Below are positions 38,892 through 57,894 of a stretch of 64,000 nucleotides of DNA, piece by piece (within the stretch, counting starts at the first letter, position 1; each line of letters starts with the position of its first letter). A program made the translations under genes and the position numbers. The DNA is taken from assembly GCF_038002225.1 (NCBI RefSeq), contig NZ_JBBOCA010000001.1, forward strand, positions 992,001 through 1,056,000. The letters run 5' to 3'. The notes beneath the pieces were generated by a model. It was not told the DNA's origin and ran no database searches. It was given only the letters and a program-made list of their open reading frames with translations. Origin of the DNA: Paenibacillus sp. FSL R7-0204 (GTDB lineage Bacteria; Bacillota; Bacilli; Paenibacillales; Paenibacillaceae).

Positions 38892-38931
38892 ATCTTTGCG
38901 TGCCGTATTAAATTTTGCCTTGCGCAGAAAT

Positions 38932-39822
38932 TCACAGAAATCTTCGTATCGTACTCTGATCTGCTTCGAGGATCTGTTCGATGTCCCGCATCTGTAATAC
39001 AAAATTCCCTTTAGTTAATCCGTAACGATAAACAAGCTGATGAATTTGTAAAGTAAGCTGACCATCGAAGCAAATTAAATCCCCTCTCGTTGCTGACTCA
39101 AGCGCAATATTTTTTAATGCATCCAGCTCTATCTCCTGAAACCGTTCTTCCATCGGGACGATCCATTCATGCTGAGTGGACAATGTTCTCTGATCCAGAC
39201 AGACAATAAGCTGATCGGGACCATCCAAGGTGCTATAGGGATCGTAATAAGCAAAGATTACAGGTTTATCTATATGAGCCTCTAAAATCGGTTGACCAGA
39301 ATGAGATGATTTATACTCCTCGTAACCCCTAGGCAACATTTCACCCTCATACTCACGGCGCAATATTTGATCGAAGCGTATTTTTGCCATATCTCTGGAT
39401 ACCCCAAATATCTTAGAAATCTGCTGGATGGCTATATTGTAATCTGCAGATAAATTAAAGGGCTGAATCATGAAAAAAGGCATTGTGGCATAAAGAACAA
39501 ACTTTTCAGCATCTTCTTCTTGTGCTTTGATAAAAGGAACAGGAAGTACCATCTGATTCCCGGCATGTCTCAGCATGTGGCATAATTCATGCAGAAAATC
39601 AAATCGCTGCTTCATTGGTGTAGAACGGTTGTCCAATAATATACAGCGCAGACCCGATGAAGATTCGTATGCACGGCTTGGGACAGGAGCAAAATCTGTA
39701 TGTATATTTAGCTCAGCTGAAAGCCTGGAAATCGTAATGTCTTCAGGTTGGAGAATGGAATGATTTATATAGAGATTTTCTACGAAATTTTCTAAATGTG
39801 TTTTTTTATAGTGAATAAACAT
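38932..39822 (-). CDS. ImmA/IrrE-family metallopeptidase
   Basis: 296 residues from ATG 39822, six bases after GGAGG; an in-frame codon at 39906 would add 28 residues but lacks a site. The zinc motif HELCH is at residues 78-82, with a downstream acidic helix EEDAEKFVLYATMP that supplies the third ligand, as in ImmA and IrrE. The C-terminal 150 residues are a helical/beta extension of unknown role. It lies directly downstream of an XRE repressor gene on the same strand, the arrangement in ICEBs1 and PBSX-like elements where the protease cleaves the repressor upon DNA damage or signalling. Induction of the tail particle by this route is inferred. Confidence 0.85.
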   Translation of the reverse strand: MFIHYKKTHLENFVENLYINHSILQPEDITISRLSAELNIHTDFAPVPSRAYESSSGLRCILLDNRSTPMKQRFDFLHELCHMLRHAGNQMVLPVPFIKAQEEDAEKFVLYATMPFFMIQPFNLSADYNIAIQQISKIFGVSRDMAKIRFDQILRREYEGEMLPRGYEEYKSSHSGQPILEAHIDKPVIFAYYDPYSTLDGPDQLIVCLDQRTLSTQHEWIVPMEERFQEIELDALKNIALESATRGDLICFDGQLTLQIHQLVYRYGLTKGNFVLQMRDIEQILEADQSTIRRFL

Positions 39823-39909
39823 ATGAAACCTCCGAGTGGGAATGTATGTTCGTATATATAGATATGAGGAATCAGCCCGTTGGCTGAAACCACGATTTTC
39901 CTGCACATA

Positions 39910-40311
39910 TTAATTAATGTTGTCTGAAGATTCTGCTTTTTTCTTTTCAAGATCTTTAATAAAATGCCAAAACGTTAACATTTCCCGTTTACGTTCTTCT
40001 GGTGCATCTAAATAATCCTTGAAGAACAGTCCATGCTCGGGATTGCTTAAAAAGGCTTCAAATTCAGAAAGCTCAGGAATTGGTGATGCGCCCTCCACTT
40101 CGCTAGACCCAAATGCAAGACGCTCCATTTCTTCAGCAGTTATGCCTAGAGCACGACAAACCTTAAGGACATTATCGACGGAAGCTCCTCCTACACCTCT
40201 CATTAAGATGGATCTCAGTGTCGTATAAGGAATCCCCGCTTTTTCTGAAAAAGCCTTTGTGTTCAGGCCGGTTTCTTCAATTAACCTCTTTAAGACTTCA
40301 GCCCGCTGCAC
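39910..40311 (-). CDS. XRE-family helix-turn-helix repressor
   Basis: 133 residues. The Cro/CI HTH is at residues 3-66 (ETGLNTKAFSEKAGIPYTTL, then ASVDNVLKVCRALGITAEEM). A short variable C-terminal region contains FKDYLDAPEERKREMLTFWH. It is the likely repressor of the tail-particle genes: it is divergent from the Xpf-like sigma gene, the intergenic region carries five copies of one operator half-site, and the metallopeptidase partner lies downstream. The half-site pattern suggests it also represses itself. Confidence 0.88.
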   Translation of the reverse strand: MQRAEVLKRLIEETGLNTKAFSEKAGIPYTTLRSILMRGVGGASVDNVLKVCRALGITAEEMERLAFGSSEVEGASPIPELSEFEAFLSNPEHGLFFKDYLDAPEERKREMLTFWHFIKDLEKKKAESSDNIN

Positions 40312-40367
40312 ATGTAGCCCCTCCCCATAATCATCGGTATATACGCTACTTCGTATTATTTACCTTT

Positions 40368-40396
40368 ATTGTAGAAGCTTTAATGCGAATTGTAAA
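40368..40396 (-). promoter_or_regulatory. Promoter of the XRE-ImmA operon
   Basis: On the minus strand TTTACA (40396-40391), 17-base spacer, TACAAT (40373-40368). The predicted start near 40361 is 50 bases before the XRE start codon. The half-site at 40382-40389 is inside the spacer, pointing to autoregulation. Confidence 0.7.
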
Positions 40397-40428
40397 TATG
40401 CATATTCGTATTTTTAGGCAAACAAGTC

Positions 40429-40457
40429 TTGACATAATGCGAAATTGAGCATATTAT
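40429..40457 (+). promoter_or_regulatory. Promoter of the Xpf-like sigma gene
   Basis: TTGACA (40429-40434), 17-base spacer, TATTAT (40452-40457). The operator dyad ATGC-N8-GCAT fills the spacer, and a second dyad begins just after the expected start (about 40464). Repressor binding would exclude polymerase. Confidence 0.8.
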
Positions 40458-40516
40458 GATCTAAAAATACGAAATTGAGTATATTATCGATATTTTAACA
40501 GGAATGAGGGATAAAG

Positions 40517-41041
40517 ATGAGTATTATCGAACAGGAGCACATGGTATTTGAAAATTCTGATTTAGTACAAAGAATGCTTCCGGAATACCAGATTTCATTA
40601 AAAAGTGTAGAGCGGTTATACAGAGTTGCAGACGAGGATGATAAAAAGATAATCGCCGGGATGGTTAGTGACTGTAAATATGTGATTGATTGGCTGAGCC
40701 ATGGCCGGCGACCGGGAAATAAGCGGGGAATTGAACGCCGTGCTGGTTATGAGCGGGAAATTCTTTTAGAGCCTATTCGTATGCAGAACTTCACCTGCGA
40801 CTTCAAAGCGATCCCTTCACAAGGACTGACAGAAGATGAACAGTATCAATTGGACTATATCCTTGGGCTGCTTAGCAGAAGAGAGCGAGAGTGTTATATG
40901 CTGGCTAACGGTGAAGGATTCTCGCATGTTGCTATTGCTGGAATGCTCATGATTTCGGCGGGCAGTGTAAGTGAGTATATCCAGCGTGCGCAAAAAAAGA
41001 TCAGTTCCGTAATGGACGAATTTGGTTCACTTCTCAGATGA
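40517..41041 (+). CDS. Xpf-like phage sigma factor / positive control factor
   Basis: 174 residues from ATG 40517 after AATGAGG. The C-terminal third (about 103-170) is a sigma-70 region 4: LSRRERECYMLANGEGFSHV followed by AIAGMLMISAGSVSEYIQRA. The N-terminal part contains WLSHGRRPGNKRGIERRAGY, as in PBSX Xpf and related phage late-gene activators. There is no region 2, so it may work with core polymerase as a late-gene factor or with SigA. It is the only gene between the operator and the tail genes and is probably their activator. Confidence 0.8.
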   Translation: MSIIEQEHMVFENSDLVQRMLPEYQISLKSVERLYRVADEDDKKIIAGMVSDCKYVIDWLSHGRRPGNKRGIERRAGYEREILLEPIRMQNFTCDFKAIPSQGLTEDEQYQLDYILGLLSRRERECYMLANGEGFSHVAIAGMLMISAGSVSEYIQRAQKKISSVMDEFGSLLR

Positions 41042-41116
41042 AGCACACTGCACGAAATATGAATAATGGGTTTGTCTAGTGAAAGCCCCTAATAAATAGA
41101 AGGGAGGTTAATCATC

Positions 41117-41155
41117 ATGAATCCGTTACGTGCGACCCGCACGGTTCAGAAATGA
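41117..41155 (+). CDS. Possible 12-residue peptide ORF
   Basis: ATG 41117 lies nine bases after AGGGAGG and is followed by 11 sense codons and TGA, encoding MNPLRATRTVQK. A separate AAGGAGGG precedes the next gene. It may be a leader peptide, a gene remnant or chance; no family is recognised. Confidence 0.25.
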   Translation: MNPLRATRTVQK

Positions 41156-41179
41156 GTCCTAAATACAAGGAGGGCGAAA

Positions 41180-41602
41180 GTGACCATTACGCTGTTAATT
41201 ATGGCAATCCAGAAATTTCTGCAAAATGAATTAGCGGATGATACGCAGCCTGTTCCCCCAGTGCTGCTAGGTTATCTTTTGCCGGATACCACTGTAAATC
41301 TGGACTATCCGGTAATTATGATTCTGCCTGCTGAAGGAGAAGGAGATTCTGGGCAAGGGAAAATTCAAATTAAACTTCAATTTGGAACCCATTCCGAAGA
41401 GGATACAGGCTTGATTATGCTGCTAAATCTAATGGAGCGGGTACGTATCCTGCTATTGCGCCAGAGAGTTCTTGAACAGAAATTCAGTTTGGACGCCGTT
41501 TGGACATGGAAGCTTGACGAAGAGCACCCTTCAGCAGTGTGGAGGGGCGAACTTACAACAACCTGGGCATTGCCCCAAATTCGACAGGAGGTAGTATTGT
41601 GA
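41180..41602 (+). CDS. Phage tail protein, probable tail-terminator or completion protein
   Basis: 140 residues from GTG 41180 after AAGGAGGG. The sequence has the layout of small tail-completion proteins: an N-terminal helix (LLIMAIQKFLQNELAD), beta strands (YPVIMILPAEG, KIQIKLQFGTHSEED), a helix (LIMLLNLMERVRILLLRQRV) and a final strand (GELTTTWALPQIRQEV). The position just before the sheath gene is where P2-like elements encode completion or terminator proteins. The assignment is by context and shape, not by clear homology. It overlaps the next start by four bases. Confidence 0.5.
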   Translation: MTITLLIMAIQKFLQNELADDTQPVPPVLLGYLLPDTTVNLDYPVIMILPAEGEGDSGQGKIQIKLQFGTHSEEDTGLIMLLNLMERVRILLLRQRVLEQKFSLDAVWTWKLDEEHPSAVWRGELTTTWALPQIRQEVVL

Positions 41603-41871
41603 ATTCTATTGAAAATAATGACCAACCTCAAACCGGGCAGGAGCCCATACAAATTTATCTGGGTCCTAACTTGCGTGGCGGCCAACTGCTGCAAGCGGCC
41701 GTATTCCGGTCGGGCATTCCATCTTATTTAACGCCCCTAATGGCTGAACAGCCGGATGTGGCTGAATTGATTGTACCAGTTGAGGAAATGACCGCAGTGC
41801 AGGAGCGCATTCTTCAAGCAGGAACCGCAGAATATACAGTCTATCAAAGGCTTTTAGGGAAGGGGATCTAA
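41599..41871 (+). CDS. Small conserved phage protein upstream of the sheath
   Basis: 90 residues from GTG 41599, six bases after AGGAGGT and overlapping the previous stop (GTGA). It has an unstructured N-terminus (NSIENNDQPQTGQEP) and a compact domain IQIYLGPNLRGGQLLQAAVF, ending in LQAGTAEYTVYQRLLGKG. No family is recognised. Its place between the completion-like gene and the sheath suggests a structural or assembly role. Confidence 0.5.
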   Translation: MNSIENNDQPQTGQEPIQIYLGPNLRGGQLLQAAVFRSGIPSYLTPLMAEQPDVAELIVPVEEMTAVQERILQAGTAEYTVYQRLLGKGI

Positions 41872-41874
41872 TCA

Positions 41875-43320
41875 ATGTCATTTAAACATGGTGTAAGCAT
41901 TATTGAACAATCAACTTCGGTTCTGGCTCCGGCAAAAGCAACAAGCGGTATTCCTTTTGCAGTAGGTACAGCTCCCCTCCATATGGCAACGGCGGCTGTA
42001 CCTGTTAATACTCCTGTGCTTGTGTATAGCTACGCGGAAGCCGTTGCGGCTCTGGGATATAGTGAAGACTGGTCAAAATATACGCTGAGCGAATTAGTGT
42101 ATTCTCATTTTGCCTTGTACGAGAGAGCTCCTATGATCCTGGTCAATGTGCTTGACCCGGCTATCCACAAAACAACGGTTGCTCCAGCAGCGGTAGTTGT
42201 CAGTAACCGGCTGGCAACTTTGCAGGCTGATGGGGTACTACTGCCGACACTGATTGTTAAATCTTCAGATGGTACTTCTACTTATATATCCGGTAAGGAT
42301 TACACAGCTGCTTTTGATGAGAATGGACATGTGTTAGTCACAACGAAGTCTTCTGGTGCAATTGCATCCAGTATTGATCAGCTTTCTATTGGATATGACA
42401 AGCTGGACCCTGATGCTGTAAAAGCTGAGGATATCATTGGGGGCGTAACATCTTCCGGTGAATATACCGGTTTTGAGCTGGTTCATCAAGCTTATCCGCG
42501 TTTTGGTATCCTTCCGGATCTGCTGCTGGCTCCGGGCTGGTCGCATTTGCCTGCGGTTGCTGCAGTGATGAAGGCGAAAGCCGGAAATATCAACGGGAAT
42601 TTCAAGGCGATTGCGCTGACGGATATTGATCCCTCCCGGTCTTACACAGACGCCGGTACATGGAAAGCCAACAATAGTTACACGGGTGCTTTGCAAGTTG
42701 CCGCTTACCCGATGCTGACGCTTGGGGGTAAGAAATATCATTTCTCCACCCAGCTTGCCGGCCTTATTGCCGCGACCGATGCGGGTAATGGCGGCATTCC
42801 TTTTGTATCCCCTTCTAATAAATCTTTGCAGGCGGACGGCACTGCATTGTCTGACGGGACAAACCAATTCCTCGGGATTGATCAGGCCAGCTTCCTGAAC
42901 AGTGCAGGCATTGTAACAGCACTTAATTTGGGAACAAGCGGCTGGAAGAGCTGGGGGAACAACACCGCTGCCTATCCGGGCGTAACCGATCCTAAAGACA
43001 GCTTTATTCCGGTCCGCCGGATGTTCAACTGGATCAGCAACAGTCTGATTCTGACCTATATGCAGAAGGTGGATGACCCGATGAACAAGCGGCTGGTAGC
43101 CGCGGTTACGGATTCAGTTAACATTTGGCTGAATGGCCTGACGGCATCGGGAGCACTGTTGGGCGGTCGGGTAGAGTTCAATGAATCCGAGAATCCGGTG
43201 ACAGATCTGATGGCCGGTAAAATTACATTCCATCTGCATCTTACGCCGCCTGGACCGGCACAGGAAATTTCATTCCTGCTTGAATACGACACAACATACT
43301 TGGCTGCGCTGGTAGCGTAG
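41875..43320 (+). CDS. Contractile tail sheath protein (P2 FI-like)
   Basis: 481 residues from ATG 41875. N-terminal MSFKHGVSIIEQSTSVLAPA and IPFAVGTAPLHMATAAVPVN lead into the polymerising domain. The C-terminal domain carries RRMFNWISNSLILTYMQKVD and GGRVEFNESENPVTDLMAGK, typical of sheath proteins of P2-like myophages and R-type pyocins. The sheath contracts around the tube, driving it through the target envelope. It is the first of the clear structural genes; the tube gene follows by 14 bases. Confidence 0.92.
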   Translation: MSFKHGVSIIEQSTSVLAPAKATSGIPFAVGTAPLHMATAAVPVNTPVLVYSYAEAVAALGYSEDWSKYTLSELVYSHFALYERAPMILVNVLDPAIHKTTVAPAAVVVSNRLATLQADGVLLPTLIVKSSDGTSTYISGKDYTAAFDENGHVLVTTKSSGAIASSIDQLSIGYDKLDPDAVKAEDIIGGVTSSGEYTGFELVHQAYPRFGILPDLLLAPGWSHLPAVAAVMKAKAGNINGNFKAIALTDIDPSRSYTDAGTWKANNSYTGALQVAAYPMLTLGGKKYHFSTQLAGLIAATDAGNGGIPFVSPSNKSLQADGTALSDGTNQFLGIDQASFLNSAGIVTALNLGTSGWKSWGNNTAAYPGVTDPKDSFIPVRRMFNWISNSLILTYMQKVDDPMNKRLVAAVTDSVNIWLNGLTASGALLGGRVEFNESENPVTDLMAGKITFHLHLTPPGPAQEISFLLEYDTTYLAALVA

Positions 43321-43334
43321 AAGGAGGAGCAATA

Positions 43335-43853
43335 ATGCCAAACAGATCAGAACGGGTTATTGATTATTCGGTGTACTTGAATGCCGTCGATTACTTGGGA
43401 ACAGCAACCGCGACCTTGCCGGAAATTACTTACTTGGTAGATACAATCAAAGGGGGCGGGATTGCAGGAGAAATGGCGGCACCTTCCCCAGGGTACACGG
43501 GAGCGATGAGTCTGGCGCTTAAATGGCGCACGATCGAGAAGGCAGCAGCCTCTCTACTGGCACCAAAGGTCCACACGTTGGATCTGCGTGCTTCCATTCA
43601 GACGTTCGATACCGCGACAAGTGAATACCGCGAGGTGCCGTTTAAGGTTACCGTTCGGGCGAGACCGCTCGGCTTGACACTTGGTAATCTGGAGACTGGA
43701 GCCGCAATGGATACCACCAACAACTTCTCGGTTAACTATTTGAAGGTCACGCTGGATGGTGTTCAGGTGTTGGAAATTGATAAGTATAACTACATTCATA
43801 AAGTATACGATGTCGATTACCTTGCGGCTACCAAACAGAATCTGGGTCTATAA
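43335..43853 (+). CDS. Tail tube protein (P2 FII-like)
   Basis: 172 residues. The start MPNRSERVIDYSVYLNAVDY and the segment LPEITYLVDTIKGGGIAGEM match the phage major tail tube family. The end DGVQVLEIDKYNYIHKVYDV is the beta-barrel/linker region. It forms the rigid inner tube that is exposed when the sheath contracts. It is preceded by AAGGAGGAG, 14 bases after the sheath. Confidence 0.9.
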   Translation: MPNRSERVIDYSVYLNAVDYLGTATATLPEITYLVDTIKGGGIAGEMAAPSPGYTGAMSLALKWRTIEKAAASLLAPKVHTLDLRASIQTFDTATSEYREVPFKVTVRARPLGLTLGNLETGAAMDTTNNFSVNYLKVTLDGVQVLEIDKYNYIHKVYDVDYLAATKQNLGL

Positions 43854-43865
43854 GGAGAGTGCACG

Positions 43866-44186
43866 ATGGGAACAAAAGAATTGGAGGAGACCGGAGCGGA
43901 AGTATACACTTTCGCCCGGCCCGTTAACTTTGAGGGCGATACGTTTGAAAGCCTGAGTATTGATTTTGACAAGTTAACCGGCGAGGACATCCTTACCTGT
44001 GACCGGCAATATCAGATGGAATCTGCCCGTCAATCCGGTGGAGAATTGATTAAAGAGACCAATAAAGCTTATCAGGCTTATATTGTGGCCAGGGCTGCTG
44101 GTGTTCATGTGGGGCTGATTAAAGCTCTGCCCGCTAAGGATTTCACAAAACTGACCTTACAGGCACAAAGTTTTTTGCTGCTGTAG
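43866..44186 (+). CDS. Tail assembly chaperone GpE-like (0-frame product)
   Basis: 106 residues from ATG 43866 after AAGGAGAG. ARPVNFEGDTFESLSIDFDK followed by LTGEDILTCDRQY, then SGGELIKETNKAYQAYIVAR, matches the phage tail-assembly (GpE/gp41) family that binds the tape measure protein during tail building. It ends at TAG 44184-44186, nine codons' worth before which a slippery T-TTT-TTG allows -1 slippage into the E' extension. It lies 12 bases after the tube gene. Confidence 0.85.
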   Translation: MGTKELEETGAEVYTFARPVNFEGDTFESLSIDFDKLTGEDILTCDRQYQMESARQSGGELIKETNKAYQAYIVARAAGVHVGLIKALPAKDFTKLTLQAQSFLLL

Positions 44187-44226
44187 GCTGCGGAGACGGC
44201 GATGGGATCAAAGACATCGCCGTCTC
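44171..44226 (+). other. Programmed -1 ribosomal frameshift signal
   Basis: The heptamer T-TTT-TTG (44171-44177) is in the GpE frame (AGT TTT TTG). Fifteen bases later a perfect 12-base-pair stem follows, GAGACGGCGATG (44193-44204) and CATCGCCGTCTC (44215-44226), with a ten-base loop. The heptamer type, spacer and stem are those of known tail-chaperone frameshifts, including P2 E/E'. Confidence 0.88.
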
Positions 44227-44332
44227 TTTGGCCATGCTTACCCACACTCCAATCCCCTATTTTCTCGGCCTGCCTGTTGAGGAACTGGGGGATTGGGCAG
44301 AGCGGGTGGCGAGAATTAAAGGAGGGAGGTAA
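44177..44332 (+). CDS. GpE' extension made by -1 frameshift
   Basis: After slippage at 44171-44177 the -1 frame is open for 51 codons and stops at TAA 44330-44332, giving a fusion of about 155 residues. The extension includes GIKDIAVSLAMLTHTPIPYF and then LGLPVEELGDWAERVARI, which resembles the LP-x-x-EL-x-x-W-x-E signature of P2 GpE' products. No start codon with a binding site exists for independent translation. The stop is four bases before the tape measure ATG. Confidence 0.82.
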   Translation, partial: AAVGCGDGDGIKDIAVSLAMLTHTPIPYFLGLPVEELGDWAERVARIKGGR

Positions 44333-44335
44333 CCT

Positions 44336-47266
44336 ATGGCAGGTTCAGGTTCAGGCAATCCAAGCAGCATCAGTGAGCTTATTGTCCGGCTGAATGTATT
44401 GGTGAATCCAAATGTTCCCCGCTCTGTCGAGGAAGTGGAACAGCAAATTAAGGATTTGGAAGACGTGCTTAAGGAGCTGGCCAGGGCGGGCTACTTCGAT
44501 CAACTGCGCGGAGATGCTGAGGACGCTGGCGACGAAGCCGAACAACTTGGTGACAAACTTAAGGCTGCTTTCGAAAAAGTGGATTTCTCCATGCTGACTA
44601 AAGCGGTTGAACCCCTAAAAGCCGTATGGACGGCTGTGAATGATTCTGCCGGGGCAATGGCGCAGCTTCAGGCATCAACCGGATTAACCGCCGCTGAAAT
44701 GAGCGGAATGAAAGAAATCTCGGATAACCTGTACAGTCAGAATTACGGTAAAAACTTCGAAGATATCGGTGACGCGGTTGGAACGGTGAAGCAAGTTCTG
44801 GGTCAAACCGGAGATGAGCTGGAGAAGACCACCCAGACAGCTATGACGTATCGCGATGTTTTTAAGGGGGATATACCAGACTCTGTACAAGCCGTTGACG
44901 CGATGATGCAAAAATTCGGCATCTCTTCAGAACAGGCCTATAATCTGATGGCTCAAGGTGCGCAGAAGGGGATGAATACATCCGGCGGGCTTCTAAGTGC
45001 CGTAGAGAAGTACAGCGCGGACTTCAAAAAGATGGGGTATTCTGCTGACGAGATGTTTGAATTATTAAGCTCTGGCATGGACAATGGGGGGGATTCCCTT
45101 GAGGGTCTTGCCGGGGTTGTGAAGAAATTCAGCTCAACGGTGAAAGAGGGCTCAGATTCCACAAAGGCCGCAGTCTATGAGTTATTTGCTCCTGAGCAGC
45201 TGAATCAATTCAGTGCTGCGCTTGTAAGCGGTGGGACGAAGTCGAAGGAATTCGGCGAATTAGTGAAAGTGGCCGGGAAGAATGGAGCTGTTGCCCTGGT
45301 CAAGGATTTGAAGGCAGGGGGAGATTCGGCGAGCAAGGCCATGCTTCAACTGCGCAAAACAATGGGCAGCGGGGATGAAATCTTCAAAGGGCTGGCAGAC
45401 GGGTCCATGACCGGCAAGGATGCCATGAATCAGGTGATTGCGAAATTAAAAGCAGTTAAAGATCCGGTTCATCAAGCGGCCCTTGCCAGCGCTATATTCG
45501 GGGCTCAGTTTGAGGAGATAGGAAATAAAGCAGTGTTGTCGCTGGGCCAGACGCGGCATCAGTTTGATATGACCCGGCAGACGATGGATGAAGTATCTGC
45601 GATTAAGGACAATACGTTAACAGAGCAGTTCGCAGCTATAGGGCGGGAGTTGATGTCCGGTCTAGTGGTTCCTCTGGGAGAGAGCGTGATGCCTGCGCTT
45701 CAGGGGCTGACTAGCTGGGCGTCAGACAACAAAGAAGTGCTGATGGTTATAGGTCTTGCAGCCCCTACTGCAGTGCTGGCAACCAAGACTGTGAAGATTG
45801 TTCAGGAGTTCTCGAAGATCATCAAGGCGGCCAGCGGGGCCAGCGGAGCGGCTGGAGGATTTGCGGGTGCACTGGGATTGCTGACGAATCCCGTAGGTCT
45901 CGCTATTGCCGGTGTCGGACTGGTCACAGCCGGTGTCATTGCCTTCAAAAAGCATCAGGAGGATGCGCGCCAGGAGCTTTTGAATATGGGGGATGTGCTG
46001 GGTGAATCCTATGCTAATTATTCAGCGATTGAGGAGGCTAATTCCAAGACCCAGAATCTAATCACTGAGCATGACCGGTTGACAGGGAAGATTAAGGATG
46101 CAAAAACTCCTGCTGATGAATTGTTAGAAGCCAGACGAAAACTGAAGGATGTAGAGCAGAAACTTATCGATATGAATCCGAATATTCTGTCTGCTGAAGG
46201 CTCCAAGAATGATAAATTCCGAGAACAGATGGGTCTTGTCGGAGATATTGCCAAAGCCCGAGAAGAAATGGGACGTCGTGAACTAGAACATGAGGCCCTT
46301 ACTGCACAAGCCAAATTGCCTGAATTAGAAAATAACTATTCAAAGCTGACTCAGGATCTTAAAGATCAAAGTGCCGCCTATGAGGAGATGAAGGTAAAGT
46401 ATAGGGACTATGTCGTGCTTATGGAGGAGTACAACGAAATAGAATATAGTGATCTCGATCCTAATCAAAAAGGTGAGAAAATTTTAGCGTTTTCTAAAAA
46501 AGCAAGCCAAGTGACTGGGAAAGATTATACAATAATAGATCACTTTGAAGATGACTATTCTAAAATGGAGGAATCCATTAATAAAAAGAATACCCAAATT
46601 AAGAAAACAGATAGTGATAGGAAAGAGGCAGAAGATGGACTGGTAAATTATTATAATACTCAGAAAAAAATAGTTGAACTTGATCTTGGTGGTACCTTGC
46701 AAGAGCAAGCAGCCAAGTACAAGGATATGTCTGCTGCTGAACAAGAGCGATTCAGGCAGGCTCTGGATAAGGTGATGCTTCTTAACGCTGCACTTGATAA
46801 GCTGCCTACTGAAATGAAAGTGAATTTGCAGCTTATTTGGGAGCAGATAGGGAAAGTCCCGAATGCTACTGGAGTTCCAGGGGGAGAAGGCAAAGAAGGT
46901 GTCAAACCGAAAGAGAAATCATACCACCCGCTCTATGGCGGACCAACCATTGCAGAATACGCTGAAGGCGGTATCGCATACGTTCCCTCTATTTTTGGTG
47001 AGGCTGGCCCTGAAATCGCCATTCCCTTAAACCGCAAGCCCCGGTCGAGGTCTTTGCTTGAGAAGGCAAATGATTTGATGGGATATAATAACAATTCCGT
47101 TAACAATGGGGATATTCATGTAACCTGGGCGCCTAGTGTAACTCTTCAGGGTGGCGATACATCTGTAGCTGAACAGGTGCGGGAGGCTTTAAGGCAGACA
47201 GAGGACGGATTTGAACGCAGGTTCAAGTCGATGCTAGTGCAACAGAGGCGGGTGAGCTTCCAATGA
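44336..47266 (+). CDS. Tail tape measure protein
   Basis: 976 residues from ATG 44336 after GGAGGGAGG. A helical N-terminal part is followed by the conserved tape-measure core (ASTGLTAAEMSGMKEISDNL; FGISSEQAYNLMAQGAQKGM). Two hydrophobic segments near residues 464-490 and 508-540 may enter the target membrane. A charged coiled-coil region (about 570-800) precedes a C-terminal FGEAGPEIAIPLNRKP motif common in these proteins. Length sets tail length. Between about 46440 and 46690 the DNA becomes markedly A+T-rich (many AAA/AAT codons), unlike its neighbours, suggesting an exchanged segment. Confidence 0.92.
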   Translation: MAGSGSGNPSSISELIVRLNVLVNPNVPRSVEEVEQQIKDLEDVLKELARAGYFDQLRGDAEDAGDEAEQLGDKLKAAFEKVDFSMLTKAVEPLKAVWTAVNDSAGAMAQLQASTGLTAAEMSGMKEISDNLYSQNYGKNFEDIGDAVGTVKQVLGQTGDELEKTTQTAMTYRDVFKGDIPDSVQAVDAMMQKFGISSEQAYNLMAQGAQKGMNTSGGLLSAVEKYSADFKKMGYSADEMFELLSSGMDNGGDSLEGLAGVVKKFSSTVKEGSDSTKAAVYELFAPEQLNQFSAALVSGGTKSKEFGELVKVAGKNGAVALVKDLKAGGDSASKAMLQLRKTMGSGDEIFKGLADGSMTGKDAMNQVIAKLKAVKDPVHQAALASAIFGAQFEEIGNKAVLSLGQTRHQFDMTRQTMDEVSAIKDNTLTEQFAAIGRELMSGLVVPLGESVMPALQGLTSWASDNKEVLMVIGLAAPTAVLATKTVKIVQEFSKIIKAASGASGAAGGFAGALGLLTNPVGLAIAGVGLVTAGVIAFKKHQEDARQELLNMGDVLGESYANYSAIEEANSKTQNLITEHDRLTGKIKDAKTPADELLEARRKLKDVEQKLIDMNPNILSAEGSKNDKFREQMGLVGDIAKAREEMGRRELEHEALTAQAKLPELENNYSKLTQDLKDQSAAYEEMKVKYRDYVVLMEEYNEIEYSDLDPNQKGEKILAFSKKASQVTGKDYTIIDHFEDDYSKMEESINKKNTQIKKTDSDRKEAEDGLVNYYNTQKKIVELDLGGTLQEQAAKYKDMSAAEQERFRQALDKVMLLNAALDKLPTEMKVNLQLIWEQIGKVPNATGVPGGEGKEGVKPKEKSYHPLYGGPTIAEYAEGGIAYVPSIFGEAGPEIAIPLNRKPRSRSLLEKANDLMGYNNNSVNNGDIHVTWAPSVTLQGGDTSVAEQVREALRQTEDGFERRFKSMLVQQRRVSFQ

Positions 47267-47463: not shown

Positions 47464-47468
47464 AGCAT

Positions 47469-49354: not shown

Positions 49355-49680
49355 TATATACCATTGATATGACTCAGCCCGCCCTAATTGATTTTAGCCC
49401 GGCAACGGTAGAAGAGGAAGTCGCTCAGAATATAAGAATGATCCTTGCTACTCCGCTTGGGAGTGCACCGTTGGCCCGGGGAGTTGGCCTGGACTACTCA
49501 ATTATTGATGAACCGGCATATATCGCAGAATCCCGCCTGACGGCAGAGATCATCACAGCCATTACAGAGCAGGAGCCGCGTGCGATAGTGGCCGATGTTT
49601 CTTTTCATAAGGATATAGAAGAGCAGCTTACAGGCAGTTTGGCCGTTGTACTGAAATATAGCCTGGCAGAGGAGGAGTAG
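49351..49680 (+). CDS. Baseplate wedge protein GpW/gp25-like
   Basis: 109 residues. The conserved gp25 pattern is VAQNIRMILATPLGSAPLAR followed by GVGLDYSIIDEP, and ITAITEQEPRAIVADVSFHK. The protein joins baseplate to the first sheath ring and starts sheath polymerisation. The EPR motif typical of gp25 is present (EQEPRA). Confidence 0.9.
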   Translation: MIYTIDMTQPALIDFSPATVEEEVAQNIRMILATPLGSAPLARGVGLDYSIIDEPAYIAESRLTAEIITAITEQEPRAIVADVSFHKDIEEQLTGSLAVVLKYSLAEEE

Positions 49681-49683
49681 GAA

Positions 49684-50811
49684 TTGGAATATGCAGAATT
49701 ACCGGATATCCGCTTTTCAGAGGAGGATGCAGCAGCCATACAGCAAAATGTAATCACAGTGTATGAAGGCCTTGCCGGACGCACTTTACAGCCTGCCGAT
49801 CCGGTGCGGCTTTTTTTGTCTTCGCTCGCAGCTGTGATTATCCAGCAGAAGGTGCTGATCAATCAGACAGCCAAAGGAAATTTGCTGCGCTATGCCTCAG
49901 GCACGTTATTGGATCACATGGGGGCTTTTCAGGGAGCGAAGCGGTTAGAGGCATCGGCGGCAATCGTTACGCTTCAGTTTGTTTTATCGATCCCGCTGGC
50001 TTCAGCAACTTCGATACCAGCAGGGACACGCGTCGGAGTACAGGGCGGTAAGGGTTCGATATATTTTATAACCATGGAGTACTTGGAGATTCCTCCAGGA
50101 GAGACTGCGGGGATGATTAAGGCAAAATGCTCCGAATCGGGGACAACAGGGAACGGGTTCTTGCCGGGGCAGATTAATGTTCAAATGGACCCGCTGCCTT
50201 TTGTCCAGTCTGTAAGTAATCTAACTACCAGCTCTGGCGGAGCTGCTGCTGAGACGGATGAAGCCTTCAAGGAACGCATCCGCCATGCGCCGGAATCGTA
50301 CTCAACGGCGGGGCCTCAGGGAGCATATGAATTCTGGGCTAAGTCCGCTTCCCCGGCAATTAAGGATGTTCATGCTTACTCTTCGGCACCCGGGCGTGTT
50401 ACCGTTGTTCCGTTACTGGCAGAGGGGGGGATTCCAAGCGAGGATGTCCTGAATTCTATTGCTGAGACTTTGGAAGACCGGGGAATCCGGCCGCTTACCG
50501 ATCTAGTAACCGTGAGTGCACCGCAGCCAATCAGTTACAATACTTCGCTGGTCTATTATATTAGCCGCAGCCGGGCTGCTGAGGTTCCGGGTATCCAGGC
50601 GGCAGTATCGGCAGCTGTTGCTGCTTATCAGCTATGGCAGCGCTCCAAGCTTGGCCGGGATATCAACCCGTCAGAGCTGATATCCCGTGTTATGGCTGCT
50701 GGGGCACTCCGGGTGACAGTGACAGAGCCCGTGTATAAAACCATGTCCGCAACCCAAGTGGCTCTGGCCGGCACAACGGCAATGACTTACGGAGGGTTGG
50801 CAGATGATTAA
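49684..50811 (+). CDS. Baseplate protein GpJ-like
   Basis: 375 residues from TTG 49684 after GAGGAGGAG. The family pattern is ASGTLLDHMGAFQGAKRLEA, IPAGTRVGVQGGKGSIYFIT and GGAAAETDEAFKERIRHAPE, ending in the trimer-forming DINPSELISRVMAAGALRV. It forms the baseplate wedge with GpW and GpI and holds the fibres. Its last eight bases overlap the I gene. Confidence 0.9.
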   Translation: MEYAELPDIRFSEEDAAAIQQNVITVYEGLAGRTLQPADPVRLFLSSLAAVIIQQKVLINQTAKGNLLRYASGTLLDHMGAFQGAKRLEASAAIVTLQFVLSIPLASATSIPAGTRVGVQGGKGSIYFITMEYLEIPPGETAGMIKAKCSESGTTGNGFLPGQINVQMDPLPFVQSVSNLTTSSGGAAAETDEAFKERIRHAPESYSTAGPQGAYEFWAKSASPAIKDVHAYSSAPGRVTVVPLLAEGGIPSEDVLNSIAETLEDRGIRPLTDLVTVSAPQPISYNTSLVYYISRSRAAEVPGIQAAVSAAVAAYQLWQRSKLGRDINPSELISRVMAAGALRVTVTEPVYKTMSATQVALAGTTAMTYGGLADD

Positions 50812-51355
50812 TATCCAGACTTTAAGCCTGATCGATCTGCTGCCGCTTCCCATTCGTAAGGACCCTGCCATGGCTGCGGCTGCGGCTGCGTTAGATATAC
50901 AGTTACAAGAGACGAATGCTATGATCGCCGGTTTGAATATTTTTGGCCGGTCAGCGGAATGGACAGATGCGGAAACGGATGAGCTGGCCTGGCAATTCAA
51001 GCCACCGTATTATGATCCAGCTCTGCCTGTTGAACAGAAGCGGCTACTGATTCAAAATGCAATACCCTTTCACAGACACAAAGGTACTGCAGGTGCAGTA
51101 GAAGATCTGATCGCCATCCTGTTTGGCCAGGGTGCAGTCGAAGAATGGTGGCAATATGGGGGAGACCCCTGTCATTTTCGGGTGGTCACCAATAATGCTG
51201 ATGTGACTGCTGCACGGGCACAGGAGTTTATCGCCGCTGTTGATGCAGTGAAGCGGTTGTCTGCTGTACTGGATAGCGTCACTATTTCACAAGCGGAGCA
51301 GCTGCCTCTTTACTTTGGCGGCTTTTTACATTTTGGGGAACACATTAAGATATAG
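50804..51355 (+). CDS. Tail protein I (GpI-like, fibre attachment)
   Basis: 183 residues. The P2 GpI pattern is seen in LLPLPIRKDPAMAAAAAALD, ELAWQFKPPYYDPALPVEQK and FHRHKGTAGAVEDLIAILFG. It connects the wedge to the fibre. It overlaps J by eight bases, and the fibre gene follows 12 bases on. Confidence 0.88.
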   Translation: MINIQTLSLIDLLPLPIRKDPAMAAAAAALDIQLQETNAMIAGLNIFGRSAEWTDAETDELAWQFKPPYYDPALPVEQKRLLIQNAIPFHRHKGTAGAVEDLIAILFGQGAVEEWWQYGGDPCHFRVVTNNADVTAARAQEFIAAVDAVKRLSAVLDSVTISQAEQLPLYFGGFLHFGEHIKI

Positions 51356-51367
51356 GGAGGGAATCAT

Positions 51368-54300
51368 GTGGCAGTATTTGGAGGCATGACACTGACCAAC
51401 AAAGGTCTTGTGCTGCAGGGAAAGGCCCAAGCGGGGGGCAAGTTGAATTATACCCGCATTGCTGTAGGCGACGGTTCACTTACAGGACAGGCTGTTCCGG
51501 CGATGAATGGACTGATTTCGCAAAAGATCAGTTTGCCGATTACACGAATAACTACACAGCCGCCTAATAAGGCGATTATTGGTTCGGTGCTGCGGAACGC
51601 GGATGTCTCTACAGGATTTTACTGGCGGGAAGTGGGAGTCTTCGCACAAGACCCGGATGCGGGGGAAATCCTCTACGCCTACGCTAATGCCGGAGTAACC
51701 GCAGATTACATTCCGCCAGGCGGCGGATCAGACATTATCGAGAAGACGTTCGATTGTGTCGTAGTAGTAGGCACAGCCGCCAATATTACGGCGGTCATTG
51801 ATGAGTCGCTGGTGTTTGCGAAGAAGTCTGAGCTCAATAATGTTGAAGCTGCCAAAGTGGATAAAGTATCAGGCAAGGGATTATCAGCGAATGATTACAC
51901 CACAGCCGAAAAGACTAAACTGGCTGGGATCACTGCGGGGGCAGGCGGGGGAAGCTCAGCAACGGATACGGTTATTGGGAGCCGGACGATTTCAGATACT
52001 ACGGCACCAACAGGAGATAGCGGCACTATTACCAATCTGCTGGGTTGGCTGGCGAACACGGTCAAATCCATCACAGGCAAGTCTTCCTGGCGGACTGCTC
52101 CGGCCACAACACTGGAGGCTGCAAAAGCACATGCGGACGATGCCACCCGGCATCTGACGGCAGCGGATCGGACGGCAATCGCCGGGGCTATTCCTTCTTC
52201 GCAGAGGAATGTTGCGAACGGGGTGGCTGCTTTAGACAATGCATCGCTGGTAGTGGGCCAAGGGTTGAGACTTGGAGGCAGTGAGCAGTACATCGAAAAG
52301 GTGTTCTCATTCCAAACCGTTAATGGTACCGCTAATCAGAAGATAGATTACACATTTGGTCCAGCCGTCATGTCTGGATTTATTGAGGTGACAGTAACTG
52401 GGGCTTGGGGTAACTCTTCATCTGAAGGTAGATTGACAAAGCGGATGGATGTTATGGGTAGCACTGCGGGCACCATTAACCGTCAAAGCTCACAATATAC
52501 CGAGGTTTCTGGCGCTATTAGAGGGCAGTTGTCAATCTCAGATGTGTATTGGAAAGAGGGTAAATGGACCGTAACAGTGGAAGCAAGAACTAGTGCAGGG
52601 AACAACTATACTACCCACGTTAAGCATCACGGACCACTTGGGGCTAAAGATTGGGTGCAGGGGAGTATCTACACGGGATCACCAACAACCTTGCCAATAG
52701 CAGTGCAGGTTATCTCAGATGATACGAAAACAAAGAGCGGGCAGCAGATTGAAACGGTTATAGGCTCTCAATCTAAGGCAGATGCAGCGCAGGCTGCTGC
52801 TATTGCCTACACCGATACAAAGGTAGGTCGGGTAGACCTGACCCAGACTCTGGGGCCGGGCACATCGATAATCCAAGCGGACCAGAACGGCAGCGAGTTG
52901 GACCTGACGGTTCAGGGAGTGACGCGGAATAACGTGCTGGCAATCTATGGGGACGCAGAGAGTTTGGCGGGGTGGACCCAATCTAGCGGCGAGCCGGTCA
53001 TTTTGTCTTCCACTCAAAAGCGATCTGGTAGTTACTCCTTCAAGGCTGTGCCGAATGCGAGTAAGGGCAGTTATGTGTACAGAGACTTCACCACATCTCT
53101 GGAAGCAACCAAACAATATGTCTTAGCATTCGCGGTATTTGTGGAGACGTATACCAACGGCAATCAAGAGGTAAGTCTGCGGGACATTGGAACTTTTACA
53201 CCGAAGTATAATGTCTACCTGGGAGCATCGGTTCCCGTGGGAAGCTGGCAGACTTACTACCTGAAGATTCCGCCAGGTAATACACTGGTGGGCAACGGCT
53301 TCAGGCTGTTGGTCGGTGCGGGCGGGGCAATGGTTAACTATATGTATTTCGATGACATACGGATGTATGAAGTCACCGCAGCGGAGTATGCGGCCATTGG
53401 TGCAACAATCACCGGAGCCGCGATTGATTCATATTTCCCACATGTTTCAGGCAAGCAGCACGTGCAGGGCGTGTCCGTCACAAAGCAAGGAAAAAATGCA
53501 GCTAGTGTATCTGTTTTATCAATGACCAATACAGTTAACGGGGCCACTTTAATTGAAGATAGGTCCACTAACTCCATTACTGTGAATTCCGGCACAGTGG
53601 CCGGCTACAACTACGCTGCAACAAGCAGGATACAGGTTATTCCTAACACCGTGTACACTTTGTCTGCAATTTTGACTAATGTATCAGGACCTGACTTACC
53701 TTCCCTTAGCGTAAGAAAAGGTAGCGATAATGGAGTGAGTAATATTACAGGATTAGGAGGGGTTGGCTCCAAAAGCTTCAGTTTTAATTCGGGTGCTGAA
53801 ACTGAAATTATCCTTTTTGCCTATGGATCGGTTGCAACGGCTGCTGTCCAAACAAAGCGTTATGAGAACATTCAGCTTGAACTCGGCAGCGCAGCCACCT
53901 CATTCACGCCAGCAGAGCCGCAGTCCGTTATCCTCCCGGTCACGCTTGGGCAGATCGGGGATGTGCGGGATAGTGTGTACTCGCAGGGTACGGAGTGGAT
54001 GTATGTGGAGCGTATAAAAAAGGGTATCGTTCTGGATGGGGCGCTTGCTTGGACGTATGGTGGAGGTTATCCCGGATTCCATCGTGCCATGCATACGAAT
54101 TATCCTAATGCTGTTATTTTGAGCGGCTTGTATACCAAATATGATGGATTTACATCTCAATTTAAAGAGACTAGCGCCTCTGATGATTGCGCCAATATAT
54201 ATCCCACCAATGGCGGGAGCTTATACTTATCGCTGCCGCATAGCAAAACAGGGTGGTCGGACTCAATTAATCCGTCTAATAACGCTATCAAGGCCCTCAT

Positions 54301-56911
54301 GAATGGATGGAAGGCAACAGCAAACGATGGATCAGCCTATTCATCTTGGGTGGCTATCCTGGACGGCAGCGCCCCGGCAACGAATACTTCAACCTATGTA
54401 GCCGCCAATAAAGCCCCGGGCTGGACGGCATGGGCTACGCTGGATTACGTGCTTGCTTCTGCCGCAGCTCCGGTGCCGATTCCAAACGCTGAGGGGAGCA
54501 TTACGCTGCACCCGGGCGGGAACCAAATTAATATCGAGACCGGAGTTATTCAGAGAGAAAAGGTTACCCCTGTATTTAATTCTGGTGCCAACTACTGGGA
54601 GATAAATCGAAGTGACTCACCTTATGTTGCGTCAAAAACGTCAAAACGGTGCGGGAAATTTGTAGAGGTTTATGCGGGCAGTGAGGCGATACCAAGGGTA
54701 TGGGCTGTAAATGCGATAGGTGTTGTCGGGACAGATAACGGCGTGCGTATGGGCATCCCCGTAGCCTACTATGACCCATCAGCGACCTACTACGTAACTT
54801 ACATCGCCCTCGACAAATACGCCCTCACCGCCAATGTCACCGAGACAGCAGCCACATGGCGGACTGGCCTGGGCGGCGCGGTCTCGGATGTTCTCCAGGC
54901 TGTCGCGGAGATACGGCAGAATAATGATCTGCAGGACTTTGCCGATGATTATATTGAGGCAAAGGTTGATAACCTGAAGTTAGGGGTTGCCAATGGTTCA
55001 GCACTGCCTGCTACCATTCAGAAGTACAAGCTGACTGAGGATGGTGGATGGGCTACGAGGTATACAGGCACATTAAATAACTTGACCACTCCAGGCTACT
55101 ACTATATACCAAGCACCCCATCAGATGCACCTATCGGCTATACTGATTCCGGTATTTTAGAGGTAATCAGGCTAGCAGACAGCACTACAAATACAATTCA
55201 AAGGCTGACTACTTATGGAGCGGGGAGGAGAACATTTACCAGAGGTGGCGGAAATGGCGGTATCTGGGGAGCTTGGCAAGAGACCGTCATGAAAGCCACA
55301 CAGTTAGCCAATACTATGGACTTAAACACGCTGACGGAAGGAGAGTACTACGCTGTAAGCAACGCCTCTGCTGCAACTCACATAAATATGCCTGCCGAGG
55401 TTGCAGGTGTGTCGTATGCCTTGAAAGTTTTAAGGAATGTGGGAGATGGTGTGACACAGCTTTTAACGACTTATCTAGTAAGCTCTCCGAGAATGTTCGT
55501 TCGGAGCAATTACAACGGATTATATGGGGCTTGGTATGAAATTGAAACCACTCGTACCAAAAATGTTGCCGGAGGGTATGCCGGACTGGATACAAACGGG
55601 GATATCCTACTGACGGCAGTTCCTGACGCAGTTCAGAAGTACAGCCTCACCAAAGATGATGGGAAAGCACTAGTCCTAGCCGGGGGAACCGATCTAAATA
55701 CTGTTCTTACAACAGGATTCTACTCAGCACAGAGCCTTGTCAATGCTCCCGGAGACTCCAGCGCATGGTTCCACATTATAGTCCAGACTCATTCTGGCAA
55801 TACAGACGGCACCAGCTATGTGGTGCAAAGAGCGATAAATTTAACATCCGCCGGAACTCCTCCCGAATGGATCAGGAGACGGGTAGCAAATGTATGGGGA
55901 GCATGGGTTAATATTCCGAACAGCAGTATGTATAACGTTGCAAACGGATTAGCTTTTCTTGATGCAAACGGCGATCTATCTTTAAATACTATCCCTGATG
56001 CGATTATTCAGGGTACGGTTGCTTATGCCGTCACCACCGGTACAGTACCGAATCTCTACGTTCAAATATCATCCTTTTCCACAACTGCCCTAGTCACTGG
56101 AATCCGGCTGTCTATCAAGATTCATGTCGCTACCTCCGGCCCGATTACACTCAACGTCAACGGCCTGGGAGCTAAGTCCATCAAAAAGCCAAACGGCAAT
56201 AACCCTCCGTTGGTGCAGGGCGGGGTGTACACAGTGGTGTACGATGGAACGGCTTTTATCTTACAGGGTGAAGGGGGTGAGTATGGTACAGCTGAAGCAG
56301 CACAGGTACTAACCGGCTATAGCGTTGGGAGAGAGTACGGGGTGGTGGATGGCTCCATGCCTAACCGATCCACTGAGAATCATCACATGCCTGCATCGCA
56401 ATACACGGTTTGGGAGGGGGATCGAGTCTTCCTAAATCCACCTGAGGGATATTACAATGGTTCATCGTGGGTTACAGCTCCCGCGACAGATATTAGACCT
56501 GAAAATATTTTAGTCGGCAAGAATATACTTGGGGTGTCAGGTAATGGTAAAAGCCCAATGAAAGAAGCAGTTCGGACGTTTAAGTCTAACGGAGGGACAG
56601 TTTCAGTTTCGTTTGAAGGGCTTCCATTTGTCCCTATGCTTTTAATTTGTTCGCAAAATGTAGTATGTACTAACAGCTCTGTTCCGGGAACTTCTGGCTT
56701 AACTGAAGGTTACGGATTTGCAGTACGCAACACAGTGTCAGGTACAGCAAGGGGAGGGGCACTTCGTACAGCGTATACTCCGGTTTCTGGAGGATCTTCG
56801 TATTCTCAGTTCGGGTCATTCAACGTAACATGGACGGACAATTCAGTCACAATCACCATGTTTGATAATGGAAGTGTGGGCAATAAGGTCGCATTTATTT
56901 ATGGTATTTAA
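51368..56911 (+). CDS. Modular tail fibre / receptor-binding protein
   Basis: 1847 residues from GTG 51368. The N-terminal 150 residues are a phage tail-collar/fibre attachment domain (MAVFGGMTLTNKGLVLQGKA; VSTGFYWREVGVFAQDPDAG). Then come a linker NVANGVAALD (about 281), a beta-sandwich region (about 520-668) ending YMYFDDIRMYEV that resembles carbohydrate-binding jelly rolls, and a second such region to about 860. Three repeats of pyocin-knob type end in GAWQE, GAWYEI and GAWVNI (about 1200-1520), with repeated linkers VAGGYAGLDTNGD and VANGLAFLDANGD. The C-terminal tip is glycine/serine-rich beta structure. No separate fibre chaperone gene follows. It should determine the target strains. 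Confidence 0.88.
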   Translation: MAVFGGMTLTNKGLVLQGKAQAGGKLNYTRIAVGDGSLTGQAVPAMNGLISQKISLPITRITTQPPNKAIIGSVLRNADVSTGFYWREVGVFAQDPDAGEILYAYANAGVTADYIPPGGGSDIIEKTFDCVVVVGTAANITAVIDESLVFAKKSELNNVEAAKVDKVSGKGLSANDYTTAEKTKLAGITAGAGGGSSATDTVIGSRTISDTTAPTGDSGTITNLLGWLANTVKSITGKSSWRTAPATTLEAAKAHADDATRHLTAADRTAIAGAIPSSQRNVANGVAALDNASLVVGQGLRLGGSEQYIEKVFSFQTVNGTANQKIDYTFGPAVMSGFIEVTVTGAWGNSSSEGRLTKRMDVMGSTAGTINRQSSQYTEVSGAIRGQLSISDVYWKEGKWTVTVEARTSAGNNYTTHVKHHGPLGAKDWVQGSIYTGSPTTLPIAVQVISDDTKTKSGQQIETVIGSQSKADAAQAAAIAYTDTKVGRVDLTQTLGPGTSIIQADQNGSELDLTVQGVTRNNVLAIYGDAESLAGWTQSSGEPVILSSTQKRSGSYSFKAVPNASKGSYVYRDFTTSLEATKQYVLAFAVFVETYTNGNQEVSLRDIGTFTPKYNVYLGASVPVGSWQTYYLKIPPGNTLVGNGFRLLVGAGGAMVNYMYFDDIRMYEVTAAEYAAIGATITGAAIDSYFPHVSGKQHVQGVSVTKQGKNAASVSVLSMTNTVNGATLIEDRSTNSITVNSGTVAGYNYAATSRIQVIPNTVYTLSAILTNVSGPDLPSLSVRKGSDNGVSNITGLGGVGSKSFSFNSGAETEIILFAYGSVATAAVQTKRYENIQLELGSAATSFTPAEPQSVILPVTLGQIGDVRDSVYSQGTEWMYVERIKKGIVLDGALAWTYGGGYPGFHRAMHTNYPNAVILSGLYTKYDGFTSQFKETSASDDCANIYPTNGGSLYLSLPHSKTGWSDSINPSNNAIKALMNGWKATANDGSAYSSWVAILDGSAPATNTSTYVAANKAPGWTAWATLDYVLASAAAPVPIPNAEGSITLHPGGNQINIETGVIQREKVTPVFNSGANYWEINRSDSPYVASKTSKRCGKFVEVYAGSEAIPRVWAVNAIGVVGTDNGVRMGIPVAYYDPSATYYVTYIALDKYALTANVTETAATWRTGLGGAVSDVLQAVAEIRQNNDLQDFADDYIEAKVDNLKLGVANGSALPATIQKYKLTEDGGWATRYTGTLNNLTTPGYYYIPSTPSDAPIGYTDSGILEVIRLADSTTNTIQRLTTYGAGRRTFTRGGGNGGIWGAWQETVMKATQLANTMDLNTLTEGEYYAVSNASAATHINMPAEVAGVSYALKVLRNVGDGVTQLLTTYLVSSPRMFVRSNYNGLYGAWYEIETTRTKNVAGGYAGLDTNGDILLTAVPDAVQKYSLTKDDGKALVLAGGTDLNTVLTTGFYSAQSLVNAPGDSSAWFHIIVQTHSGNTDGTSYVVQRAINLTSAGTPPEWIRRRVANVWGAWVNIPNSSMYNVANGLAFLDANGDLSLNTIPDAIIQGTVAYAVTTGTVPNLYVQISSFSTTALVTGIRLSIKIHVATSGPITLNVNGLGAKSIKKPNGNNPPLVQGGVYTVVYDGTAFILQGEGGEYGTAEAAQVLTGYSVGREYGVVDGSMPNRSTENHHMPASQYTVWEGDRVFLNPPEGYYNGSSWVTAPATDIRPENILVGKNILGVSGNGKSPMKEAVRTFKSNGGTVSVSFEGLPFVPMLLICSQNVVCTNSSVPGTSGLTEGYGFAVRNTVSGTARGGALRTAYTPVSGGSSYSQFGSFNVTWTDNSVTITMFDNGSVGNKVAFIYGI

Positions 56912-56955
56912 GAGGAAGAAAGCAGAATGAACAATGGAATAAGCTATCCATTGCA

Positions 56956-56984
56956 GCCTCTCCAGAAACGGAGGGGCCTTTTTA
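56956..56984 (+). terminator. Terminator of the tail-particle operon
   Basis: GCCTCTCC (56956-56963), loop agaaac, GGAGGGGC (56970-56977), then C and a T-rich run. It lies 44 bases after the fibre gene. No gene is seen between it and the cysH promoter. Confidence 0.85.
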
Positions 56985-57042
56985 TTTTATAAGCTATCAT
57001 CTGCCTCCACTCCATACTTTATTCCAAAATGAACAAAACCCA

Positions 57043-57836: not shown

Positions 57837-57894
57837 GATAGGGCTAAATAAGTATCAGCACTACACAGGCACTGCACAGGAGGAGAGAACAGGG

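Follow-up and report, generated by a model that had tools for sequence, protein, structure and literature searches.

A headless P2-like tailocin locus in Paenibacillus that may depend on a second tailocin for release

In a Paenibacillus genome of 7.71 Mb (G000), we find an 18.1-kb locus, here termed T1, that encodes a headless P2-like contractile tail between rpsI and cysH, at 38.9-57.0 kb of the 64,000-nucleotide stretch of DNA that was analysed (the window). We consider T1 to be a functional headless contractile tailocin that descends from a P2-like temperate phage and depends for its release on a second tailocin, T2, and we assign this reading a probability of roughly 0.6. It draws on the anatomy of T1, the constraint on its genes, the stepwise decay of its lysis cassette across related genomes, and the co-occurrence of T1 lysis state with T2, all of which are observed. 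How a tailocin without a linked lysis gene leaves its cell is an open point, and the tailocins of Gram-positive bacteria have been little studied. If our reading is true, the weapons of one genome would hold lysis in common, and tailocin searches keyed on a linked lysis cassette would overlook loci of this kind. The relatives of T1 form an ordered series from full cassette to none, with constraint on the weapon unchanged, and the pattern makes tailocin exit testable by the removal of one gene in a soil bacterium.

Anatomy and control of T1

T1 comprises 17 proteins within window positions 38932-56911, the control unit included. By its genes it is an R-type tailocin, with sheath, tube, tape measure, baseplate and fibre all present. 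Its borders were placed by comparison with five empty rpsI-cysH sites, to which homology ends at about 38891-38897 and restarts at about 57013-57016, with no terminal repeat at the insert borders in that comparison. The left border is the end of a 117-bp block consisting of the rpsI end and a terminator. The features are given below in window coordinates, with reference to the 13 genus genomes in which T1 adjoins cysH.

38892..57013, unstranded: T1 insert, borders approximate (homology to the empty rpsI-cysH sites of five genomes)
38932..39822, minus: M78 (ImmA/IrrE-like) metallopeptidase (PF06114, E 1e-10; the listed ORF reaches a GTG at 39906)
39839..39852, minus: conserved site just before the M78 start, resembling an SOS box and an Xre operator (position kept in 13/13)
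39910..40311, minus: Xre/Cro-type repressor (PF13443, E 1.4e-5; phrog_4583)
40350..40473, unstranded: predicted cluster of five AATRCGAA operator sites, between the repressor and activator genes
40429..40457, plus: sigma-70-type promoter of the activator gene, operator overlapping (TTGACA-17-TATTAT, 11/12)
40517..41041, plus: sigma-like late activator (phrog_1190, E 8.7e-42; PF08281)
41072..41098, plus: late promoter motif TTGTCTAGNNAANGCCCNNNATNNATA (at most one mismatch in 13/13 T1 loci)
41180..41602, plus: small virion structural protein, by position a putative tail-end protein (phrog_2581, E 4e-23)
41539..41871, plus: conserved small protein (phrog_4089, E 3e-16)
41875..43320, plus: tail sheath, FI (phrog_23, E 1.2e-87)
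43335..43853, plus: tail tube, FII (PF04985, E 2.5e-39)
43866..44186, plus: tail assembly chaperone E (phrog_3140, E 3e-30)
44171..44332, plus: E' extension, -1 frame from slippery T TTT TTG (44171-44177)
44336..47266, plus: tape measure protein (PF10145, E 1.7e-14)
47263..47463, plus: tail protein X (PF05489, E 1e-7)
47469..48500, plus: baseplate hub D (PF05954, E 2.3e-10)
48501..48917, plus: baseplate assembly protein, V-like (phrog_6142, E 6.9e-9; no Pfam match)
48914..49354, plus: tail protein U (PF06995, E 4.7e-30)
49351..49680, plus: baseplate wedge W/gp25 (PF04965, E 6.4e-7)
49684..50811, plus: baseplate J (PF04865, E 1.2e-54)
50804..51355, plus: tail protein I (PF09684, E 1e-20)
51368..56911, plus: tail fibre, 1847 aa (PF12571 at residues 8-153)
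56956..56977, plus: terminator-like hairpin 3' of the fibre gene (8 pairs, T-run next)

An earlier note on this DNA had described a headless P2-like tail block with a control unit of its own, and both descriptions hold. The tail genes that it named are all present and open, and they follow the P2-like order of FI/FII, E/E' with a -1 slippery site, X, D, V, U, W, J and I, with two short genes (phrog_2581, phrog_4089) preceding the sheath. The sequence AGT TTT TTG ahead of the E stop is kept in 13/13 T1 loci, and phage P2 uses the same E/E' slippery site. A Pfam scan of the 17 T1 proteins gave no match to capsid, portal, terminase, integrase, holin, endolysin or AAA+ families, as the note had also claimed, and the start of cysH lies only 232 bp from the fibre stop. 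Having no AAA+ ATPase of the eCIS kind among these 17 proteins, T1 is not filed as an eCIS; the lysis cassette that pseudomonad tailocin loci usually contain is also missing, a trait that we do not count as defining. Cytoplasmic contractile systems have been described for Streptomyces, and a locus without a lysis gene could likewise act inside the producing cell, its release never intended. However, the P2-like baseplate and diverse fibre of T1, the lysis cassettes of its sister loci (below), and the want of an AAA+ ATPase among the 17 proteins scanned argue against such a role, which we regard as very improbable.

The control unit consists of an M78/ImmA-like peptidase, an Xre repressor and a sigma-region-4 activator, each of which was matched. 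The probable start of the M78 gene is the ATG at 39822 rather than the GTG that lies upstream of it (39906): that ATG and the ribosome-binding site before it are common to the 13 loci. The site that lies 15 bp upstream of this ATG in 13/13 loci is the only match in the window with at most one mismatch to the Bacillus SOS consensus, from which it departs by one mismatch in four loci and by two in nine; it also fits 7/8 letters of AATRCGAA. Between the Xre and M78 genes there is, in addition, a conserved inverted repeat, TCAGCC-AACG-GGCTGA (window 39853-39885 region, minus strand), with paired changes in G061 and G055, which could be an RNA hairpin or a dyad operator. The AATRCGAA cluster to which the earlier note drew attention is real, with five copies in 124 bp (40350-40473) and 11 in the 64-kb window against 5.78 expected from shuffles. 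Two of the sites are dyads of the form ATRC-N8-GYAT, at 40437-40452 (ATGC-N8-GCAT, inside the TTGACA-17-TATTAT promoter) and at 40467-40482 (ATAC-N8-GTAT), and the sites are recognisable, with changes, in eight aligned loci. The late promoter motif occurs in 16/100 genus genomes, as against 2/100 for a reversed-pattern control. In three genomes besides the 13 (G007, G134 and G146; L097, L096, L098) it trails a related activator gene (57-58% identity), and two of these stretches, those of G007 and G146, look like prophages, the motif standing ahead of terminase-, portal- and capsid-like genes (names read off ORFs). Its presence in these three genomes indicates that promoter and activator occur as a recurring pair in Paenibacillus phages. 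Against G072, the control genes (38932-41041) show dS of 0.59-4.75 and the tail genes 0.29; since control-gene dS thus exceeds tail-gene dS with the closest relatives, the control unit, or immunity region, has probably been exchanged.

Distribution, ancestry and selection

T1 sheath matches were found in 31/100 genus genomes. In 13/100 (G000, G072, G145, G059, G143, G028, G130, G122, G132, G051, G061, G022 and G055) T1 adjoins cysH, with rpsI immediately to the left in 11 and another element between in G072 and G055. From the 18 other sheath-match genomes, stretches of 13 were taken (the sheath locus of G146, and G138, G121, G142 and G032, were left out); the G133 stretch was left out of the analysis, and Cohnella nanjingensis and the other named sheath loci served for mapping only (15/57 loci). 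The 3' end of rpsI is a hot spot for integration. In G072 a prophage of ~38.6 kb, equipped with integrase, HK97-type capsid and terminase, separates rpsI from T1; in G055 another island does so; and the rpsI-end block (116-117 bp) is duplicated where these elements sit (L191, L192; L195, L196). T1 may therefore have arrived there as a prophage. Its ancestor would have been a complete phage of the kind found in P. monticola (G018), where a relative of T1 (sheath 80%) is preceded by terminase, portal and capsid genes, with holin and endolysin coming after it. As a separate observation, sat (window 57893-59070) is only ~42-86% identical across species, as compared with 90-100% for cysH and 85-98% for cwlD, its neighbours, a divergence that looks like allele replacement.

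With head and lysis genes gone and an integration hot spot at its border, T1 might be taken for a prophage remnant in decay, a view that we hold to have very little chance of being correct. Its tail genes are full length in 13/13 loci, no frameshifted structural gene was seen in sister strains, and the slippery site and late promoter are kept in 13/13. Moreover, for a concatenate of nine tail genes (sheath, tube, E, X, D, U, W, J and I; the set excludes tape measure, V, fibre and both small genes), nine pairs of lysis-less loci give omega values of 0.064-0.101, and G061/G022, the pair with lysis genes, gives 0.087; single-gene values reach 0.25 (tape measure) and 0.38 (first small gene). Because omega is alike in lysis-less and lysis-equipped loci, there has been no relaxation after lysis loss. 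Judged from these substitution patterns, T1 is maintained by selection and is not decaying, as the earlier note had argued. The fibre is diverse: among the four closest loci its first 160 residues agree at 96-98%, but in three of them long segments further on are only 47-58% identical, and its length spans 594-2144 aa across T1 loci. Such diversity in length and sequence is expected if the fibre meets outside targets.

Lysis genes, their loss and the second tail locus

T1 recurs at this site in 13/100 genus genomes, and in 3/13 of these T1 loci an intact endolysin, of a different type in each, lies between fibre and cysH. The remaining 10/13, G000 included, have none or relics. The cassette of G061 holds a PF08924 endolysin and a PF06946 holin, that of G022 a PF01832 endolysin with no holin family matched, and that of G055 an M15 endolysin and a PF04531 holin. 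The first protein of the G061 cassette is XhlA-like only by a weak phrog_937 match (E 2e-5), and that of G055 only through 58% identity to it. G130 and G122 retain two small membrane-protein homologues, along with an endolysin reduced to residues 2-36; G132 has one membrane-protein ORF and a trace of the other, and G051 one, both without endolysin. Nothing recognisable as a lysis gene lies between fibre and cysH in G000, G072, G145, G059, G143 and G028. The missing cassette is accordingly best described as a loss, since 3/13 loci keep an endolysin at the same place and others keep relics. It follows that T1 is not the self-contained unit that had been proposed, the more so as a tail locus with lysis genes lies nearby. 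The relics are of the type tm105, tm136 and M15, which is the cassette type carried by T2; tm105 and tm136 have no Pfam match and are called membrane proteins by sequence appearance only.

T2 was reached through relatives of the G055 endolysin, which led to C1:1080835. It is a headless PBSX-like contractile tail locus at C1:1064628-1081823 (L170, L156), between tRNA-Pro and ppc, 8.6-25.8 kb past the window end and ~15 kb beyond cysH. It opens with M78, Xre, an activator-like protein of 168 aa (no Pfam match) and a tail terminator, continues with a sheath containing all four sheath domains, a DUF2001 tube, an XkdN-like chaperone, a LysM protein and YqbQ, and proceeds to J, a Mu gp48-like protein and fibres. 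A complete lysis cassette of tm105, a 73-aa ORF, tm136, an M15 endolysin and a PF06946 holin follows, and then ppc. Its XkdK-, XkdM-, XkdN-, YqbQ-, J- and gp48-type proteins make T2 PBSX-like, and it is filed only as such, the head genes of PBSX proper not being found (the ORF list holds no head gene between activator and sheath). The T2 lysis genes are constrained, as indicated by omega of 0.00-0.40 and by the lack of internal stops in the 35 alignments computed (of 36). Just 3' of the T2 M78 gene, at L170:8608-8631, lies a near-perfect palindrome, TTAAAGGAACGTATGTTCCTTTAA, the position of which is kept in 12/12 T2 control regions, with paired changes in G143. It is SOS-like in look, yet it stands 3' of the M78 gene, and its reading as a T2 SOS box was not used.

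A T2 sheath (75-100% identity) is present in 10/10 genomes with an endolysin-less T1 and in 0/3 with a T1 endolysin. In the nine of these T2 genomes besides G000 the T2 lysis cassette is near full length and followed by ppc; in G055, G022 and G061 the rRNA-tRNA cluster ends in tRNA-Pro with ppc next and no tail locus. Both sheaths lie on one contig in 7/10, on the same strand and 30.7-35.0 kb apart. As an independent case, a T1-like locus at another site in P. spiritus (G041), which has no T2 sheath match, keeps a cassette of tm105, tm136, M15 endolysin and a 93-aa membrane ORF. An intact endolysin is thus retained by each of the four T1-type loci that were examined in genomes lacking T2 (G061, G022, G055, G041). 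The 10/0 versus 0/3 split gives a Fisher p of 0.0035, a value that ignores relatedness. In the T1 tail tree the three lysis-equipped loci fall together, and in the host tree G028 is placed with G055, apart from the other nine, at only 60% support; independent loss events appear to have been few. T2 is in any case common, T2-like sheaths (at least 72% identical) being found in 48/100 genus genomes, 38 of the 48 without T1. These two points would suit the alternative that T1 needs no dedicated lysis at all, its particles being freed at cell death or at mother-cell lysis after sporulation, with T2 co-occurrence reflecting shared ancestry only; Paenibacillus does sporulate. Yet if lysis were dispensable, intact endolysins in all four loci without T2 would be unexpected, and we consider this alternative unlikely.

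The earlier note had further suggested looking elsewhere in the genome for a holin/endolysin pair that shares the AATRCGAA operator. No such pair was found. The 22-nt T1 operator occurs nowhere else in G000 at up to three mismatches, and AATRCGAA is absent from the 14.2-kb stretch holding the T2 control region. In the eight genomes searched, no second late promoter site with fewer than three mismatches was found; the extra sites carry three mismatches, none is near T2, and a reversed control gives similar 3-mismatch numbers. Lysis under T1's own control elsewhere was rejected on these grounds. Searches of G000 for the PF05105 holin, PF10779 XhlA (present in 1/13 genomes) and PF03354 terminase were likewise negative; the terminase search covered this one family, and relatives' prophages also use another type (PF05876).

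Release could also be owed to some other lysis source in the same genome, whether a resident prophage or a solitary third cassette at C1:2236-2238 kb (L166:4139-6068). This cassette contains a tm105-like ORF, a 386-aa ORF joining tm136-like and M15 endolysin parts, and a PF04531 holin, with no tail genes on either side in the ORF list and with transposase-like ORFs upstream. It could also serve T1. However, M15 matches of its kind are not common to the ten genomes; in G072, G145, G059, G143 and G132 the T2 copy is accompanied only by one further full-length copy, of ~228-250 aa, and the three lysis-equipped genomes likewise have a full-length M15 copy (228-358 aa) that belongs to neither T1 nor T2. 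Such a source strikes us as more doubtful still than release without dedicated lysis.

On balance, we favour the explanation that T2 lyses the cell for both particles and that the T1 cassette, made redundant by the presence of T2, then decayed; we think this somewhat more probable than all else. DNA damage would lead the M78 peptidase to disable Xre, allowing the activator to be made, which would switch on the tail operon so that tails assemble in the cytoplasm. The same stress would induce T2, whose holin and endolysin would burst the cell and let both particles escape. Common induction of T1 and T2 is an assumption here, because no shared regulatory site was found, and the service of T1 as a weapon and its release in trans are likewise what we infer. 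Selection would have persisted on the T1 tail genes and fibre, as T1 particles would continue to reach their targets. More broadly, it is an even bet that evolution has divided the labour of lysis between two tailocins that are unrelated, occupy different sites and answer to different regulators, T1 being an obligate dependent that exploits the suicide of T2-induced cells and that has shed its cassette in steps visible across species.

Comparison with known systems

The nearest phage sheaths in our collection are those of the P. larvae phages phiERICV and Lily, at 51-52% identity to T1, and Lily has the same tail order. Unlike T1, both are complete phages: they have terminase, portal and capsid, and their tail genes are followed by an endolysin-holin pair. 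Closer still is the P2-like prophage of P. monticola (G018), which shares the tail order of T1 along with a sheath 80% identical, and differs in possessing a GpA-type terminase (PF05876), portal, capsid E, holin (PF05105) and M15 endolysin. T2 resembles PBSX of Bacillus subtilis in its XkdN-like chaperone, YqbQ-like protein, DUF2001 tube and Mu gp48-like protein. PBSX has a head, unlike T2, in which no head gene lies between activator and sheath.

Pseudomonad tailocin loci usually contain a lysis cassette (PMC7815802). In that account, the R-tailocin loci of P. protegens CHA0 and its relatives are, like T1, headless contractile tails with a regulator at a fixed site; unlike T1, they contain holin, endolysins and spanins under PrtR-type control (PMC7815802). 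The closest parallel is P. chlororaphis, in which two divergent R-tailocins in one cluster are described as having a single lysis cassette for both (PMC12090994). As with T1 and T2, two tailocins of different origin occupy one strain, and the single lysis cassette documented there is what we propose here (PMC12090994). The P. chlororaphis pair sits in one cluster, whereas a stretch of ~15 kb that includes an rRNA operon and host genes separates T1 from T2; T1 and T2 are further distinguished in that each has its own M78/Xre/activator set, one is P2-like and the other PBSX-like, and sister species retain relics of the lost cassette. In the part of the open-access literature that was searched, subscription papers and preprints apart, we found nothing that describes T1, and no Paenibacillus in which tailocins at different loci are reported to share lysis. 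In Pseudomonas, tandem tailocins are known to share it; T1 and T2 stand apart on the chromosome, differ in ancestry and are each under their own control.
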